Assembly: GCA_003557545.1 (NCBI GenBank)
Contig: PWOD01000036.1
Span: forward strand, 1-16,721
DNA length: 16,721 bases
From: a bacterium
GTDB lineage: Bacteria > T1Sed10-126
Direction of reading: 5' to 3'
The notes beneath the pieces are model-generated. The model had not been told where the DNA came from. It was given only the letters and a program-made list of their open reading frames with translations, and made no database searches. A program made the translations under genes and the position numbers. Of the stretch, positions 1 through 6,284 are shown piece after piece (position 1 is the first letter of the stretch; every line of letters begins with the position of its first letter).

Positions 1-1925
1 TGAATACCCTGCCTGTATTCCGGGGTGATACTAGTAAAATGTGGATCATCTACCAGATCACCCTGATCAAAATGGAGCCCACCGGGGCTTATGCGGGCCT
101 TGAAACCCTGTCCGACACGGGACGAACGATCGGTGAGGGCGGCGACAAAAAAGGTAAAACCGGGATCGATCACCCCCCGATTATATTCCAGCCGGGTATC
201 GGACCCAAACTGCTCCTGAGGTGAAGGGAGAGTAAAACCATCCTGCAGAACAAGCCGGACACGGGTATCACTTTCCCAGTGTGTCTGAGTCTTAGAAAGG
301 GGCAAAAACTGATCAACCTCAACCCCAAACTGGTTCTTTCCCTCCCGATTGTACCAGATCTGCAGACCACTGAAACGGGTCTGATTAAGTTCACGTAGAT
401 TTTCCCGTGGATTGAACCCCTCAATGGTTTCTGGAAACTCCACAGTAATCGCTTCCAGCTGAGTCTTTAATCCAGGTGTGGGTGTATCTCCCCGAGTCCC
501 AATAGCCTTGATTCCCAGCAGTACTTCCGGGGCAAAATCAAGTCCATAACCATCATAAATCTGCCCCACGGGATCAGCATAGAGGGAGTCAAGAATTCCA
601 ACATCAGGACCAAAAGCAGTAATCTCACCCAGGGCCCGATTGAGAATCGGACCAACTGCACTTACCCCCTGAAAAAGTGACTCAGGGATAGTCTCATCCA
701 CGTCAACATCATCTTCCGTAGTATTTAATGTTATTGTGTCAACAGTAACGTCAAAAGCCTCACCATAACCAAAAAACTGGCCGGCATCCTCAAAAGATTC
801 ACCCCAACCACGGCCGGTCTGAATGGTTAGAAAATAAAAATTGTCCTCATAATAGGTCCTGTTTAATTTAACATTGGGAGTAGAACTGGTCTGCAATAGA
901 TCAGTCAAACTGGCCGCCGATCCGGAGACAACCTCGGCGGTCGCCGGATCAAATTTCGGAGTTGGGGAACGTACCAGGTCAAGCTGCTCAAGATGACGTT
1001 CGGGAATCCATTCACCGATTACCTCAGTAAAACTAATAGCCAGCTGCTCAAGAAAAACCTCCTGCCCACCTGCGGGAAAGTTGTCGCCACCATAATGTAG
1101 CGTAAAAAGTGGAATACGGTCGCTTTGTGAAGCCAGCAACTGGGGAATTCCATCAGCACTATCCTTCTCACCGGCCAGCGGCAGATCGCCATAGCGACCA
1201 CGATAACTCCCATAAGGGACAACTGCGTTTAACACTGTCAGGGGATGGCTGGAACCCTGCGACGGGGAAATATTAAAGGAAACATCGTTCGATTCTGCAG
1301 TAATCCATTCAAAATTAAGAGCAAAATTCGCACCGTGATTAGGGTGCTGATTAGCCACAGCCCCGCTCCTACCGGCGATAATTATTTCCACCTGAAATTC
1401 TACCACGTCATCAAAACCCAGTTCAAAGAAACTGGTGTCAGCCAGATCAGCCGGGGTGATCTGAACCCGGTTAAAAGCATCAAGTTCAAAGGGCAGCTCA
1501 ACAGTTTCGATTGTCGGGAAAGGACCAATATCAGATAGCCGAATAACCAGGGTATCGATATCATCCTGGTTGAATCTACCAAAATTACTGGCTGAAAAGA
1601 TAAGACTTGTTAGATCAACAGGATATTCCCCGGTCTGGGTCATAGTTCCTGAAAAAAGGCGGACCCGCTGCCCCGGCGCAACAACCTCATCCTCCGCGGT
1701 CAGACGCTCCATGGAGACAATTAGATCGCCCCGGAAGTCGGGTTCCCCATTATCCGCAGCGGCCGGCGTCAGAGATAAAGTTAACAACCCGCAGCTAAAA
1801 ACAACTATAGCCATGCTATAAAACAGAGTTGATAACCAACCGACAGGGACAGCTTCCCCCGAGGAGTTTTCAAACGCCTGTGAATAGTTGGAGTTACCGG
1901 CGACCAAATAATTTTGCTTCTGCAT
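1..1925 (-). CDS. Exported three-repeat beta-rich protein of unknown family (3' end outside window)
   Basis: The frame starts at an ATG at 1925 and stays open for 641 codons to the left edge, so the C-terminus is missing. I checked the frame at several points along its length. Residues 1-28 are polar, about 29-52 are hydrophobic, and SLTPAAA at 51-57 ends in a likely signal-peptidase site before DN, so the protein is probably exported; the polar lead is long for a signal peptide. The rest is acidic and rich in beta-type sequence, with no transmembrane helix. Three related segments begin near residues 107, 294 and 489, about 190 residues apart. Each has a 'xLxxIxxxF' strand, an acidic 'F/W-N/P' turn and a Leu-rich strand, followed by a later F-x-(V/L) strand and an R-(S/G)-rich loop. 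No family is recognised. The Shine-Dalgarno before 1925 is weak; an in-frame GTG four codons upstream and the ATG at 1814 are alternative starts. It follows gspK after 169 bases and may have its own weak promoter. Confidence 0.8.
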   Translation of the reverse strand, partial: MQKQNYLVAGNSNYSQAFENSSGEAVPVGWLSTLFYSMAIVVFSCGLLTLSLTPAAADNGEPDFRGDLIVSMERLTAEDEVVAPGQRVRLFSGTMTQTGEYPVDLTSLIFSASNFGRFNQDDIDTLVIRLSDIGPFPTIETVELPFELDAFNRVQITPADLADTSFFELGFDDVVEFQVEIIIAGRSGAVANQHPNHGANFALNFEWITAESNDVSFNISPSQGSSHPLTVLNAVVPYGSYRGRYGDLPLAGEKDSADGIPQLLASQSDRIPLFTLHYGGDNFPAGGQEVFLEQLAISFTEVIGEWIPERHLEQLDLVRSPTPKFDPATAEVVSGSAASLTDLLQTSSTPNVKLNRTYYEDNFYFLTIQTGRGWGESFEDAGQFFGYGEAFDVTVDTITLNTTEDDVDVDETIPESLFQGVSAVGPILNRALGEITAFGPDVGILDSLYADPVGQIYDGYGLDFAPEVLLGIKAIGTRGDTPTPGLKTQLEAITVEFPETIEGFNPRENLRELNQTRFSGLQIWYNREGKNQFGVEVDQFLPLSKTQTHWESDTRVRLVLQDGFTLPSPQEQFGSDTRLEYNRGVIDPGFTFFVAALTDRSSRVGQGFKARISPGGLHFDQGDLVDDPHFTSITPEYRQGI

Positions 1926-2025
1926 TAACTGGACCACTTTCTTGAGTAAGAGTTATCACGTCACCTGGTATATTACCGATTACACTCAAACCAAAAAACC
2001 TTATTGTCAGATTCCACCATAATTA

Positions 2026-2094: not shown

Positions 2095-4329
2095 TCAAAA
2101 AGAGCGCATAAACATAATTTTTAACGGTTCTCCATCAAACAGCGGACGGCGATCAACCACTGCCTGAACTGTCGAACGGCTGAGTGGCGAACCCTGTCCA
2201 TCGATTCTTCCTCCAACAACTTCAACCTGGACAATCCCTTCGCTGCCCAGCATCGCATACTGCTGGAAGACATTACAATCAAAATCTCCTGCATGCTCGG
2301 ACTGTTCGAGCTGATCACACAGTTCGATTATATCATCAAACAGCTCGCCATTCCCGGCGGCGGCCAGAGGTCCCAACTCTGGAAAATGATCGTCTGAAGT
2401 AGAGCTGACCGGTAGTTGAGCCAGAACCTCCGGGGGGGCACCCCGCAATCGAATGATCTCCAGGGCAAGCTGATTGGTAATAAACTGTGTATCACCGGAT
2501 CCGTGGGGTTCGCCCGCCATCTGAATTCCCCGCAAAGCTTCCCAGCTGGCGGTGTTAAGATTAACCATATCGGAAAAATCCTGCCGGTAGGCCGAATAAC
2601 TGGCACCCAGGGCCCGAGCCCGGGCCGAACCAATATTAGAGATATCCAGCAGATCAAAGGTGGTCAACCAGGGCCGGGAACGGGTCATAATATCTTCCGC
2701 CCAGTTAAAAAGCCGCATGGTCCGGCCGGTGTCTGTATGCTCCCCCAGGACACATCCGTCATTATCCACCCAGCCGCCGGCATCCGAGATACAGCTGGCG
2801 GTCCGGGGATTATTTAAATCCTGTTTGCCACTTTCATCATGAATTTTCTCCACTCTGAAATAGCCAAAATCAGCCGGTTCAGGAGAGGAACCAAAAGATG
2901 GGATAAAAACAGTATCCCCCATGGAAACTCCCGGTACAATCTCCCCACCCCAGAACCAATCAGCTCCAAAATGGGCATTCCAATCGGCTCCCACGGCAGC
3001 CACTTCCCCCGGATTGGCCGCCAGCTCATCAGCCGCTGCGCAAACCCCCCGGTAACAGCCCCAGTTATTTCGAGTATTTTCCTCACCAACCCGCCCGGGA
3101 TCAAGTTTAACCATCGAACGGCCCGGATAGACCGCTTTACCGGCCCAACCATCAAATGGAACAATATCATCTTCAAAAGGAGCCGGACGGCGTAAAATAA
3201 TCTGTTCCAGCTGCTGTCGGTCCAACCCCTCCTCACCCATGAAAGAAAAGGTATCTTCCTGAATATCCCAGAGGGCAAACAGTCGAATCTCTTCAGCCTG
3301 AATTTTAGCGGCTATATCGAGACCGGTAGCGGTAGTATCAGCATCCAGCGGCAGGGCCAGTGCCACCTCTCCCTCCGGCAGCTCATCCCCGGCAAAAAGA
3401 TCAGTATAAAATGGATCCGCCGGATGGCGCTCAAAAGAAAACTGGTGGCCCGCCTGATTTTCTAACAGATATCCTCCACCCACCAGATCCTGAGCTCCGA
3501 ATCCTCCACTGTTATACAGCTCAATAAAACTCAGCTCTTCCACTTCCAGATAATCCTGTGGCCAGCCACCCGGGGCTGCCTCAACCCCCATCCAGGCGGC
3601 TCCCACAAAGAGCGTGTTTCCAGCTGTATCACCCCCGTCATCAACAGTTCTTATCTCCAGACCGCCAGCATCTCCCTCCGTCATAGTAGTTGTTGCTGAA
3701 TGGGTCAAAGCCTGCCACGAAGCATCTTCCAGCAGCGTTTCTGAGCCCCAGTTTGTATGGCCGCTGGGTGATTCAACCCCCAGTTGGACCGAGCCAGTTC
3801 CCCGAACCCAGACTTCTACATGATACTGGGTCCCTGTTTCAACCGGCTGAAGAAGATCGCCGCCCCGCTGCGAGAGAGTCCGCTGACCACCGCCGCTAAC
3901 AGCCACAGAAAAATTGCCGATCAAAGGTTCGGCTGATTCCCTGCCCCAGTTGGCTGCAAAAGAATGAGAACCGCTCCAATTTTGCGGACGATTTCCAACC
4001 CAGTTATCAAAATGCCAGTTACTAATCAGATTGCGTTCATCATCAGTTATCTGCTCGGCCAGAAAATAACTCAAAATCTCGGTGATCACCAGCCCGGAGG
4101 GTTGTAGTTCACGACCATCGGTCCGCAACAGTCCCAACCATGTTTCAAACCCAGCTTCAGCCATTAATGAGCTGGTTCCAATATGGCGCAATGATTCAGT
4201 CACCTGATACTGAGTCAGCGCGGTGGCTGAAAAAGCAGCTATCAGGGCAGCCAGAACAGCTATTACCCAGAGAATAATAATAAAAGCATTACCCCGCTGA
4301 TTACGATGAAAAAACTTAACTGGTGACAT
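2095..4329 (-). CDS. gspK: Type II secretion minor pseudopilin GspK, enlarged with CBM-like and lamin-tail-like inserts
   Basis: GspK caps the tip of the type II secretion pseudopilus together with GspI and GspJ. Residues 1-13 are a basic prepilin-type leader ending in Gly, followed by the hydrophobic helix NAFIIILWVIAVLAAL. As is usual for GspK, there is no Glu at mature position 5. The C-terminal region has the family's helix-hairpin-helix motif MVNLNTASWEALRGI (588-602) and the preceding FDLLDISNIG. Typical GspK proteins are about 300-330 residues, while this one is 744. Residues about 96-248 resemble a CBM4/9-type beta-sandwich (NLISNWHFDNW near the start, then an aromatic-rich stretch). 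Residues about 258-420 resemble a lamin-tail domain (ELSFIELYNSG, then MVKLDPGR). Cysteines at 425, 430, 513, 526, 671 and 685 could form disulfides. The ATG at 4329 is 15 bases after gspJ and is preceded by AGGAG. GspK identity is firm; the insert assignments are by pattern only. Confidence 0.87.
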   Translation of the reverse strand: MSPVKFFHRNQRGNAFIIILWVIAVLAALIAAFSATALTQYQVTESLRHIGTSSLMAEAGFETWLGLLRTDGRELQPSGLVITEILSYFLAEQITDDERNLISNWHFDNWVGNRPQNWSGSHSFAANWGRESAEPLIGNFSVAVSGGGQRTLSQRGGDLLQPVETGTQYHVEVWVRGTGSVQLGVESPSGHTNWGSETLLEDASWQALTHSATTTMTEGDAGGLEIRTVDDGGDTAGNTLFVGAAWMGVEAAPGGWPQDYLEVEELSFIELYNSGGFGAQDLVGGGYLLENQAGHQFSFERHPADPFYTDLFAGDELPEGEVALALPLDADTTATGLDIAAKIQAEEIRLFALWDIQEDTFSFMGEEGLDRQQLEQIILRRPAPFEDDIVPFDGWAGKAVYPGRSMVKLDPGRVGEENTRNNWGCYRGVCAAADELAANPGEVAAVGADWNAHFGADWFWGGEIVPGVSMGDTVFIPSFGSSPEPADFGYFRVEKIHDESGKQDLNNPRTASCISDAGGWVDNDGCVLGEHTDTGRTMRLFNWAEDIMTRSRPWLTTFDLLDISNIGSARARALGASYSAYRQDFSDMVNLNTASWEALRGIQMAGEPHGSGDTQFITNQLALEIIRLRGAPPEVLAQLPVSSTSDDHFPELGPLAAAGNGELFDDIIELCDQLEQSEHAGDFDCNVFQQYAMLGSEGIVQVEVVGGRIDGQGSPLSRSTVQAVVDRRPLFDGEPLKIMFMRSF

Positions 4330-4344: not shown

Positions 4345-5121
4345 CTACTGTCTGGGAGACAGCCGCACTATTCCCCGAAACCACTGGGGAGTAACGTGAC
4401 CGCCCGGATTAAAGGTTCTAAAAGCATATTCAACAGCCTGCGGCATACGATCCTGCTGGTCACCGCTGCGGCTATCCCACTGTTCAACCCAGCCGGCGGC
4501 AGGGTCATAGAATCTAAAAATAATCATATCAACATTATCAGCCAGGTGAAATCCTGCCTGTCGGGCCAGATTATCGTCAAAATCAGGGAACAGTTGTTCA
4601 GCATTTTCATAAGACTCCTGAGCCCGCCGGCGAAATGCACAGTGCTGGATATAAGCGGACCGATCCGAGCCCAGGAAAAAAAAGATCGACCGACGATCAG
4701 ACCGGTCACGGCCCTCGGGAACAGACTCATAACCGGCCAGACGATCGACGGAGGCCGGTTGACAGCCTATTTCATCAAATCCCCTATCCATCCCATAATC
4801 ATCGAGGGTATAGTTACCCCCACCGCCAATCAACCGCCAGCCAGATTCTGTGGGTCGCTCTAATAATCCCGGTCTGAACAACCGTTTCAACTGAATTTCA
4901 AAATCAATCGCGGCAATATGCTGATTTACCATAATATCGGAATAAGCTCTACGTTGAACCATTGTCCGATTAATCTGCTCGACCAGCACCATTAACGAAC
5001 CGGAAAGAATCGCGATCACCGCCGTGGCCACCAGCATTTCGATCAAGGTAAACCCGGCCTCGGAAGTTCTTTTTTTAGAGCTGTTATCCGAACAAAAGCA
5101 GTTGATAAACAAGCTTCTCAT
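4345..5121 (-). CDS. gspJ: Type II secretion minor pseudopilin GspJ
   Basis: This 258-residue protein has a 23-residue leader ending EAG, followed by FTLIEMLVATAVIAILSG. That is the class III prepilin signal, cleaved and methylated after Gly23 by the prepilin peptidase, with the conserved Glu at mature position 5. The helix continues into LVEQINRTMVQRRAYSD, as in the PulJ/GspJ family, and the remainder is a beta-rich globular domain of the expected size. Its ATG overlaps the gspI stop by four bases (ATGA), so translation is probably coupled. GspJ forms the pseudopilus tip complex with GspI and GspK, and the H-I-J-K gene order supports the assignment more strongly than the divergent C-terminal domain does. 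Confidence 0.87.
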   Translation of the reverse strand: MRSLFINCFCSDNSSKKRTSEAGFTLIEMLVATAVIAILSGSLMVLVEQINRTMVQRRAYSDIMVNQHIAAIDFEIQLKRLFRPGLLERPTESGWRLIGGGGNYTLDDYGMDRGFDEIGCQPASVDRLAGYESVPEGRDRSDRRSIFFFLGSDRSAYIQHCAFRRRAQESYENAEQLFPDFDDNLARQAGFHLADNVDMIIFRFYDPAAGWVEQWDSRSGDQQDRMPQAVEYAFRTFNPGGHVTPQWFRGIVRLSPRQ

Positions 5122-5579
5122 CCCCCTCCCGACGGACGCTGATCGGTTAGCAGGAAAAACAGATCCGGCCGATCACATTCAGCAGCATCAGAACAATGGA
5201 TGGTTCGGTCACGGCCGGTCACAATATCATAATATTCTATCCAGACTAATACTCGTTTACCGCTAAACTCTGGATGGGCCCCAGAAAACTCCTCAACTTC
5301 GATTCGATAATAATAATCTTCATAATCCTCATCCCGCCAGTCAGCACCAAAGTTTCCACTGGTACTGGCGGCATTCAAATACCCCTGTTCGACCTGAACC
5401 TGCCCCAGTTTCCAACGGCCCAGCATCAGGGCTGTAGCAGTTCGATCGGCCTGGATTGCCGCCTCCCAGGAGATCACGTAGGCCTGAAGCATCGGCACCA
5501 GGGCCACTCCAACGATGGCGATAGCGGCAATAATCTCTATCAGAGTAAATCCATCCTGGTTTTCATGCGGTCGTATCAT
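5118..5579 (-). CDS. gspI: Type II secretion minor pseudopilin GspI
   Basis: The protein has 153 residues, slightly longer than typical GspI. The leader MIRPHENQDG is followed by FTLIEIIAAIAIVGVALVP, a class III prepilin signal with Glu at mature position 5. Downstream, ATALMLGRWKLGQVQ matches the helix of GspI/PulI proteins that normally reads as an Ala/Leu run followed by Lys-Leu. The C-terminal part (YYRIEVEEF, then RVLVWIEYYD) fits the family's antiparallel strands. The ATG at 5579 is two bases after the gspH stop, with GGAGG seven bases upstream. GspI initiates the tip complex with GspJ and GspK. PilV of type IV pili is the nearest alternative, but the following gspJ and gspK argue against it. 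Confidence 0.87.
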   Translation of the reverse strand: MIRPHENQDGFTLIEIIAAIAIVGVALVPMLQAYVISWEAAIQADRTATALMLGRWKLGQVQVEQGYLNAASTSGNFGADWRDEDYEDYYYRIEVEEFSGAHPEFSGKRVLVWIEYYDIVTGRDRTIHCSDAAECDRPDLFFLLTDQRPSGGG

Positions 5580-5581
5580 TT

Positions 5582-6187
5582 TCAGTCCTCCACGCAGCGT
5601 GGTGGGTCGGCCAGGGTATGATGGCCATCATACACTTTAAAATCGACCAGCATTCCACTCGGGGCCCCAAGCGGTGGGAAAGCAATCGTTCGATAATCAC
5701 ATTCATCAACCGGTTCAGGACTGAGGGTTGTAAAATGAACCCCCCAGTAATCACCCATATTAACCGTCCCACTGTTGCCCCGCCGATTATAGGTTACATA
5801 ACTTTCATCCCTGGTCTCAGTAACCCCGGCCGAAACTATATCGACCCCCTGGGGCACTGAGGTGGGTGAACGAACCGCCTCCCATTCATCAAACGGAACG
5901 GTTCCCACACCACAGCTGGAACCATCACCCACCCGGGCACGTTCATAAAATACCCGGTTTTCATCAAGATCAAACCGGGCTCTCATACAGCGCTCCCGGG
6001 CCACAGCCTCAACCCGCAATGACTGCATCTCAGTAAAGATTGTATTGGTTACCTGGTTAAGTCGAAACCGGTTAATAAAACCAAAAAAACGGGGCACGGC
6101 CACAGTCGCAAAAACACCGATAATGGCCAGTACAACCAGCAGTTCGACTATTGTGAAACCGGAACGACGAGCAACTAATCGACCCAA
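5582..6187 (-). CDS. gspH: Type II secretion minor pseudopilin GspH (GspH/FimT family), TTG start
   Basis: I place the start at a TTG (6187), giving 201 residues. The leader is MGRLVARRSG, followed by FTIVELLVVLAIIGVFATVAVP, a textbook class III prepilin signal with Glu at mature position 5. The frame stays open upstream, but it contains no ATG and would add an implausible second hydrophobic segment. The chosen TTG sits five bases after AAGGCGGTG, a one-mismatch copy of the ideal Shine-Dalgarno, and gives a 10-residue leader like that of GspI. After the helix, NQVTNTIFTEMQSLRVEAVARE matches the GspH/FimT family. The beta-rich remainder has four cysteines. GspH links the pseudopilus tip complex to the major pseudopilin; GspG itself is not in this window. 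Confidence 0.85.
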   Translation of the reverse strand: MGRLVARRSGFTIVELLVVLAIIGVFATVAVPRFFGFINRFRLNQVTNTIFTEMQSLRVEAVARERCMRARFDLDENRVFYERARVGDGSSCGVGTVPFDEWEAVRSPTSVPQGVDIVSAGVTETRDESYVTYNRRGNSGTVNMGDYWGVHFTTLSPEPVDECDYRTIAFPPLGAPSGMLVDFKVYDGHHTLADPPRCVED

Positions 6188-6192
6188 AAAAA

Positions 6193-6201
6193 CACCGCCT
6201 T
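6193..6201 (-). promoter_or_regulatory. Strong ribosome binding site deciding the gspH TTG start
   Basis: The minus strand reads AAGGCGGTG, eight of nine matches to the consensus AAGGAGGTG, five bases before TTG (6185-6187). It selects this TTG over a TTG at 6265, which has no Shine-Dalgarno. A small hairpin (GGGTA, ATTCA loop, TACCC; 6205-6219) lies just upstream. Confidence 0.7.
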
Positions 6202-6284
6202 GCAGGGTATGAATTACCCACCATAAGCAAAAAACTGTCGACAACCATTGTAAAATAACAATCAACTAATCAGCAGACAAGCCC

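Follow-up and report, generated by a model that had tools for sequence, protein, structure and literature searches.

HIJK systems begin assembly from a tip complex, with the K subunit as its cap (PMC9934059). Modular pilins comprise more than 1,200 proteins in 264 architectures by InterPro (PMC8179133), and domains grafted onto tip pilins act as adhesins or receptors, as in PilB and PilC of S. sanguinis and ComZ of Thermus (PMC8179133, PMC9934059, PMC6561018). In S. sanguinis the graft on PilC is a glycan-binding lectin and that on PilB a vWA domain (PMC9934059, PMC8179133). GspK is itself a modular pilin. Such a cap is common to T4P and T2SS, and what the tip touches is known for only a few model bacteria.

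The window, a stretch of 16,721 nucleotides, belongs to an uncultured bacterium and comes from one of the two genomes of the phylum T1Sed10-126 (Candidatus Busufiota), found in hypersaline soda lake sediment (PMC11382960). It encodes a GspK-type protein of 744 residues with a large insert, in which a CBM4/9-type domain is probably nested within a lamin-tail (LTD)-like domain. ComZ of Thermus thermophilus (PMC6561018) is likewise a tip pilin of GspK-like type that has received a large foreign insert, and it has a proposed role as cap and ligand receptor; the ComZ insert, however, is a beta-solenoid lying between the penultimate and last strands and serves as a DNA receptor, whereas the insert described here follows the N-terminal helix. 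PilB and PilC of S. sanguinis are also minor pilins of a tip complex with a grafted ligand-binding module, although their grafts are C-terminal, belong to a monoderm T4P and are of the concanavalin-type lectin or vWA kind, while the present insert is internal to a complete GspK and its ligand binding is predicted. With the canonical T2SS GspK (ETEC GspK) the protein shares a helix without Glu5, the DExGK-xLN motif, the NLNTA hairpin, the C-terminal strand and a place last after H-I-J, but the canonical protein has only the alpha-domain in about 300-350 residues and lacks the additional 395 or so that are found here.

A K subunit with one large insert

The features of the window on which the analysis rests are the following.

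3..1937, minus: exported protein of 645 residues that matches no known family and runs off the contig (ORF call and domain scans)
2095..4329, minus: GspK-type minor (pseudo)pilin with insert, 744 residues (Pfam/NCBIfam scans, profile comparison)
2098..2922, minus: GspK core, residues 470-744, with DESGKQDLN (498-506), the helix-hairpin-helix NLNTA motif and the C-terminal strand (hhalign)
3040..3555, minus: remainder of the putative LTD-like domain, residues 259-430 (FIELYN..., ...ALALPLD..., PGRSMVKLDPG...NNW), below the Pfam cut-off
3556..4041, minus: predicted CBM4/9-type beta-sandwich, residues 97-258, probably nested (Pfam, fold matches, 11 homologous copies)
4042..4095, minus: putative first strand of the LTD-like domain, residues 79-96 (GLVITEIL; gain in LTD profile score)
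4108..4329, minus: prepilin leader and GspK-type N-terminal helix, residues 1-74 (hhalign, residues 7-72)
4345..5121, minus: GspJ-like minor pilin (N_methyl 29.4 bits; N-terminus fits gspJ/ComGE models)
5118..5579, minus: GspI-like minor pilin (Pfam/NCBIfam scans)
5582..6265, minus: GspH-like minor pilin, true start probably at about 6175, immediately ahead of the prepilin leader (Pfam/NCBIfam scans)

The H-, I- and J-like proteins each have a class III leader that scores above the Pfam cut-off. Because the I and J genes overlap by four bases and the K start codon lies 15 bases past the J gene, we regard the four as a single H-I-J-K operon with K as its final gene. The 645-residue exported protein begins 157 bases downstream of K and perhaps lies outside the operon; it is a possible substrate or partner.

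The K reading frame starts with ATG at 4329, with AGGAGG just upstream. Its leader reads RG/NAFIIILW, with cleavage expected after G13, and residue 5 of the mature protein would be Ile, not Glu; absence of Glu at this position is a GspK trait. Against a profile built from 20 GspKs of other genomes, residues 7-72 match with a probability of 91 (hhalign). With residues 75-469 omitted, the protein aligns to the profile from end to end (columns 1-371 of 402, probability 97.9, E 3.8e-13), and the C-terminal part alone (470-744) scores 38.5, compared with a shuffle maximum of 21.4. DESGKQDLN corresponds to the DExGKxNLN motif of GspK, and the NLNTA motif and the final strand match too. Since the rest fits the whole profile when 75-469 is left out, the protein is, as judged from these alignments, a complete GspK of ordinary size (~350 residues) with a single insert of ~395 residues right behind the N-terminal helix and before the first core strand. 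It thus joins a pilin module to domains that are not specific to T4P, as modular pilins do.

An earlier note, made from the letters of the window alone, had identified the protein as a GspK with a clear leader and core. The identification holds on the profile match and the operon, but by standard models the core is not clear: NCBIfam T2SS_GspK (NF037980) gives 22 bits, over residues 11-77 only, against a cut-off of 130, and the Pfam T2SSK models (PF03934, PF21687) give no match above cut-off to the 744-residue protein. It becomes clear once the insert is removed. Only 48 of 386 genomes pass the NF037980 cut-off, from which it follows that most divergent GspKs fail it. As the curated cut-offs are not reached, we call the protein GspK-like, or a K subunit. 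The unusual length that the note had pointed out is borne out by the canonical size given above, as are its six cysteines (425, 430, 513, 526, 671 and 685).

Neither the contig search nor the 386 genomes yielded a protein closely related to it over the whole length, and phmmer of the protein against the PDB gave no match. No counterpart of the H-I-J-K operon was found in the phylum's only other genome. A canonical GspK of 297 residues on another contig of the source assembly (C232, L037) was considered as a second GspK and set aside as probably mis-binned; the tetranucleotide distance of this contig is 0.334, and 35 chunks of the assembly itself lie at or below 0.240.

A CBM4/9-type domain and a probable LTD-like domain

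We are confident, on sequence and model evidence, that residues ~97-258 form a CBM4/9-type domain, as the earlier note had suspected. CBM_4_9 (PF02018) matches residues 100-221 with 29.5 bits, over the Pfam cut-off of 25.9. When the region is modelled by AlphaFold alongside four homologs, drawn from T1Sed10_126 and from a Bacteroidales MAG, an all-beta sandwich results, with pLDDT of about 70-86 in its better part and of up to 88 by block. The best fold match of this model is a sugar-binding domain (Z 10.8, 95 residues, 2.2 A), followed by solved CBM22, CBM29, CBM4-2 and CBM16 domains with Z of 8-9.2; Foldseek alone gives E of 0.004-0.01. CBM-like domains can, however, have a structural role instead.

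The module has 11 further homologous copies in the source genome and the second genome of the phylum, at least 12 with that of GspK. Identities are 21-50%, with 51% for the nearest copy, in a 484-residue surface protein of the second genome, and most copies belong to large exported proteins that also have InlB-type, Ig-like (Big_2) and FlgD_ig/CHU_C-like domains. Because the CBM family is common to surface proteins, the GspK insert is part of the organism's own surface-protein kit. One contig of the source genome (C133) holds an open frame of at least 1592 residues with many InlB-type repeats, adjoining further CBM copies (L022:2-4777). The same module, 40% identical, also occurs with many InlB-type repeats in the Bacteroidales MAG, from soda lake sediment (L076:5917-7821), by inter-phylum exchange in one habitat or by mis-binning.

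The LTD is less readily seen. The intact protein has no Pfam match to it, and when the CBM (97-258) is removed LTD (PF00932) becomes the best Pfam match, with 14.1 bits against a cut-off of 34.3; as this cut-off is not reached, we call the domain LTD-like. Compared with a profile built from about 29 bacterial LTDs, residues 79-96 joined to the part after the CBM score 34.2 (hhalign, probability 73) and place LVITEI and FIELYN in register; without residues 79-96 the score is 26.1. The maximum of 200 shuffles is 23.9, and that of shuffles of the head only is 30.3. Joining across the loop in two well-supported LTDs, in which 123-131 residues separate the strands, raises their scores likewise, from 55.2 to 70.8 and from 59.1 to 74.7, and these therefore serve as a positive control for the method. 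Aligned directly to the LTDs of four other K subunits (below) alone, the domain scores 19.0, below the shuffle maximum of 21.7, as against 33.7 with the pooled LTD profile, for which shuffles reach at most 19.0. Two AlphaFold models of the LTD part have pLDDT of about 35, and the fold matches, which barely cover this part, include no LTD.

Taken together, we consider it likely from the profile scores that residues 79-96 and ~259-430 form one LTD-like domain with the CBM nested in its first loop. The earlier note had placed an LTD-like domain behind the CBM as a second insert in tandem. The domain itself is made likely by the profile score, but its borders have moved to either side of the CBM, and the gain on joining indicates that the two are probably one nested unit. 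Of the checks that the note had proposed, HMMER with PF02018 thus came out above cut-off and those with PF00932 and T2SSK below, while structure prediction returned the CBM sandwich and little for the LTD part.

Lamin-tail domains in other K subunits

With the whole protein as query, a search of 386 genomes turned up large ORFs that start like a GspK, four of which bear an LTD.

G133: 626 residues, LTD 34.8 bits (just over cut-off), directly after the helix
G270: 700 residues, LTD 21.4 bits, directly after the helix
G075: 1026 residues, LTD 36.2 bits, later in the core
G217: 1049 residues, LTD 26.6 bits, later in the core

G133 and G270 belong to one bacterial family and G075 and G217 to another. 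In the first pair the LTD is placed as in the window protein, unlike in the second. Each of the four genes (L132:1558-3657, L135:2011-3888, L133:1545-4622 and L134:1537-4683, all minus) is the last pilin gene of an operon. The first and second LTD strands are 9, 34, 123 and 131 residues apart in these proteins and 182 in the window protein, and in G075 and G217 a stretch of ~125 residues occupies the first LTD loop, the same loop that would hold the CBM in the window. None of the four has a CBM4/9 domain. These four cases and their loop spacings indicate that LTD-bearing GspKs recur and that the first LTD loop takes inserts. It is conceivable, though we advance it tentatively, that this loop is a socket for different beta-rich modules in K subunits, forming a widespread, undescribed class of tips with lineage-specific specificity.

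A survey of the GspK family gave 13 ORFs of more than 500 residues among the matches listed. Twenty long ORFs of the survey, of which ten were scanned with Pfam and the others inspected visually, showed neither a CBM nor an LTD, and several were merely open frames extended upstream. Weak single matches of an LTD-core query in other genomes proved to be noise on reading. An ORF of 892 residues in G119 (L131:2723-5398) begins like a GspK, and its remainder contains no known domain; it is another enlarged pilin-like protein.

The earlier note knew of no such GspK architecture. For a CBM in a GspK this stands among the genomes searched: besides the window protein, no ORF in the 386 genomes combines a GspK start with a CBM. 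It does not stand for the LTD, which enlarges GspKs in at least four other genomes, and modular pilins are known (PMC8179133, PMC6561018). Our literature search found no report of a lamin tail joined to a pseudopilin or a pilin of such kind. The GspK(LTD(CBM)) architecture and the recurrence of the LTD in K subunits of unrelated lineages are apparently undescribed, and the latter provides a sequence handle for finding more enlarged K subunits.

The filament machine and a proposed role of the tip

Two secretins occur in the source genome, and its F-type genes form two sets, one of which looks Tad-like from gene sizes and pairing. The other lies on contig C167, on a different contig from the H-I-J-K operon, in the order GspE/PilB, a second GspE-like protein, PilT, GspF/PilC, major pilin, a PilM-type fusion, a GspC/PilP-like protein, a Big_1 protein and a secretin (GspD/PilQ) of 1514 residues. 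PilT (473.6 bits, cut-off 319), PilM (152.9, cut-off 133) and GspF all exceed their cut-offs, and the secretin, F and E proteins are nearer to GspD/GspF/GspE than to PilQ/PilC/PilB. By its gene content, then, the C167 machine is a T4P/T2SS hybrid with parts for retraction, and it is the only non-Tad machine found in this genome. No match to PilY1 was found in either genome of the phylum, in a search whose control genomes also gave no strong positive. Where PilY1 is not detectable, a K subunit in which a sugar-binding domain can be recognized is a direct and testable candidate for tip adhesion.

The explanation that we favor, at somewhat better than even probability, is that the K subunit caps the H-I-J-K complex and that a ligand-binding unit, inserted where its N-terminal helix gives way to its core, serves as a retractable polysaccharide-binding tip. 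The lamin-tail-like scaffold would carry the CBM4/9-type domain in its first loop and so display it at the far tip of a type IV-type filament. A GspE/PilB-type motor would extend this filament through the secretin and PilT would retract it; the tip would grip polysaccharide on a particle surface, in exopolysaccharide or in the cell's own or a neighbor's coat, and cell and surface would be drawn together. The tip position, which the earlier note had also assumed, is probable by analogy with HIJK systems elsewhere. Binding of polysaccharide is proposed by analogy with the grafted domains of PilB, PilC and ComZ, which serve as adhesins or receptors, and we put glycan binding and adhesion by the insert at only a little above an even chance.

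The earlier note had put the insert at the tip of the pseudopilus, as a glycan- or substrate-binding surface where cargo is selected or the outer-membrane channel is met. In a T2SS it would recruit glycan-bearing cargo or cargo with a CBM partner, or dock at the secretin. The GspD/GspF/GspE-like scores of the C167 proteins, the GspH/I/J/K-type pilins in one operon and the many large exported proteins that could be cargo speak for such a system, but a PilT-family ATPase above cut-off stands in the same gene row, and to our knowledge T2SS has no retraction ATPase of this family. Some of the large surface proteins, moreover, end in FlgD_ig/CHU_C-like domains, which hint at another export route. 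Because the only non-Tad machine is a hybrid with PilT, and also with PilM, we rank the retractable tip adhesin above cargo selection, which we consider unlikely.

Were the machine to import DNA, the LTD or the sandwich could be its receptor, as the insert of ComZ is (PMC6561018). The ComEA-like repeats at the C-terminus of the C167 secretin and the ComEA/ComEC-type ORFs present in the genome agree with this, and DNA binding has been proposed for LTDs fused to DNases of halophiles (PMC4486849). For bacterial LTDs, however, DNA binding is argued by analogy; the nested CBM is common to exported surface proteins and not to competence proteins, and the insert is rich in acidic residues, all of which make a DNA receptor decidedly improbable. 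At least as improbable is an insert that plays no part in adhesion and only makes the tip longer, shields it, or attaches it to the glycan coat of its own cell: in many bacteria LTDs are a common part of long ORFs, and the CBM family is spread over the genome's own surface proteins, as a structural spacer would allow, but the content of the loop varies among LTD-GspKs, as one would expect of exchangeable binding modules more than of a fixed spacer.

Two proteins of the C167 machine have unusual forms. The secretin (L046:15457-19998) exceeds 1500 residues and has AMIN, Invasin_D3/Big_1-like and five Secretin_N stretches; the repeats at its C-terminus are of the HHH type, and by eye there are none at the end of its 1647-residue counterpart in the second genome of the phylum. 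The PilM-type protein (L046:8804-11086) has 761 residues; two actin-like stretches lie apart from each other in it, and its C-terminus looks PilN/GspM-like.
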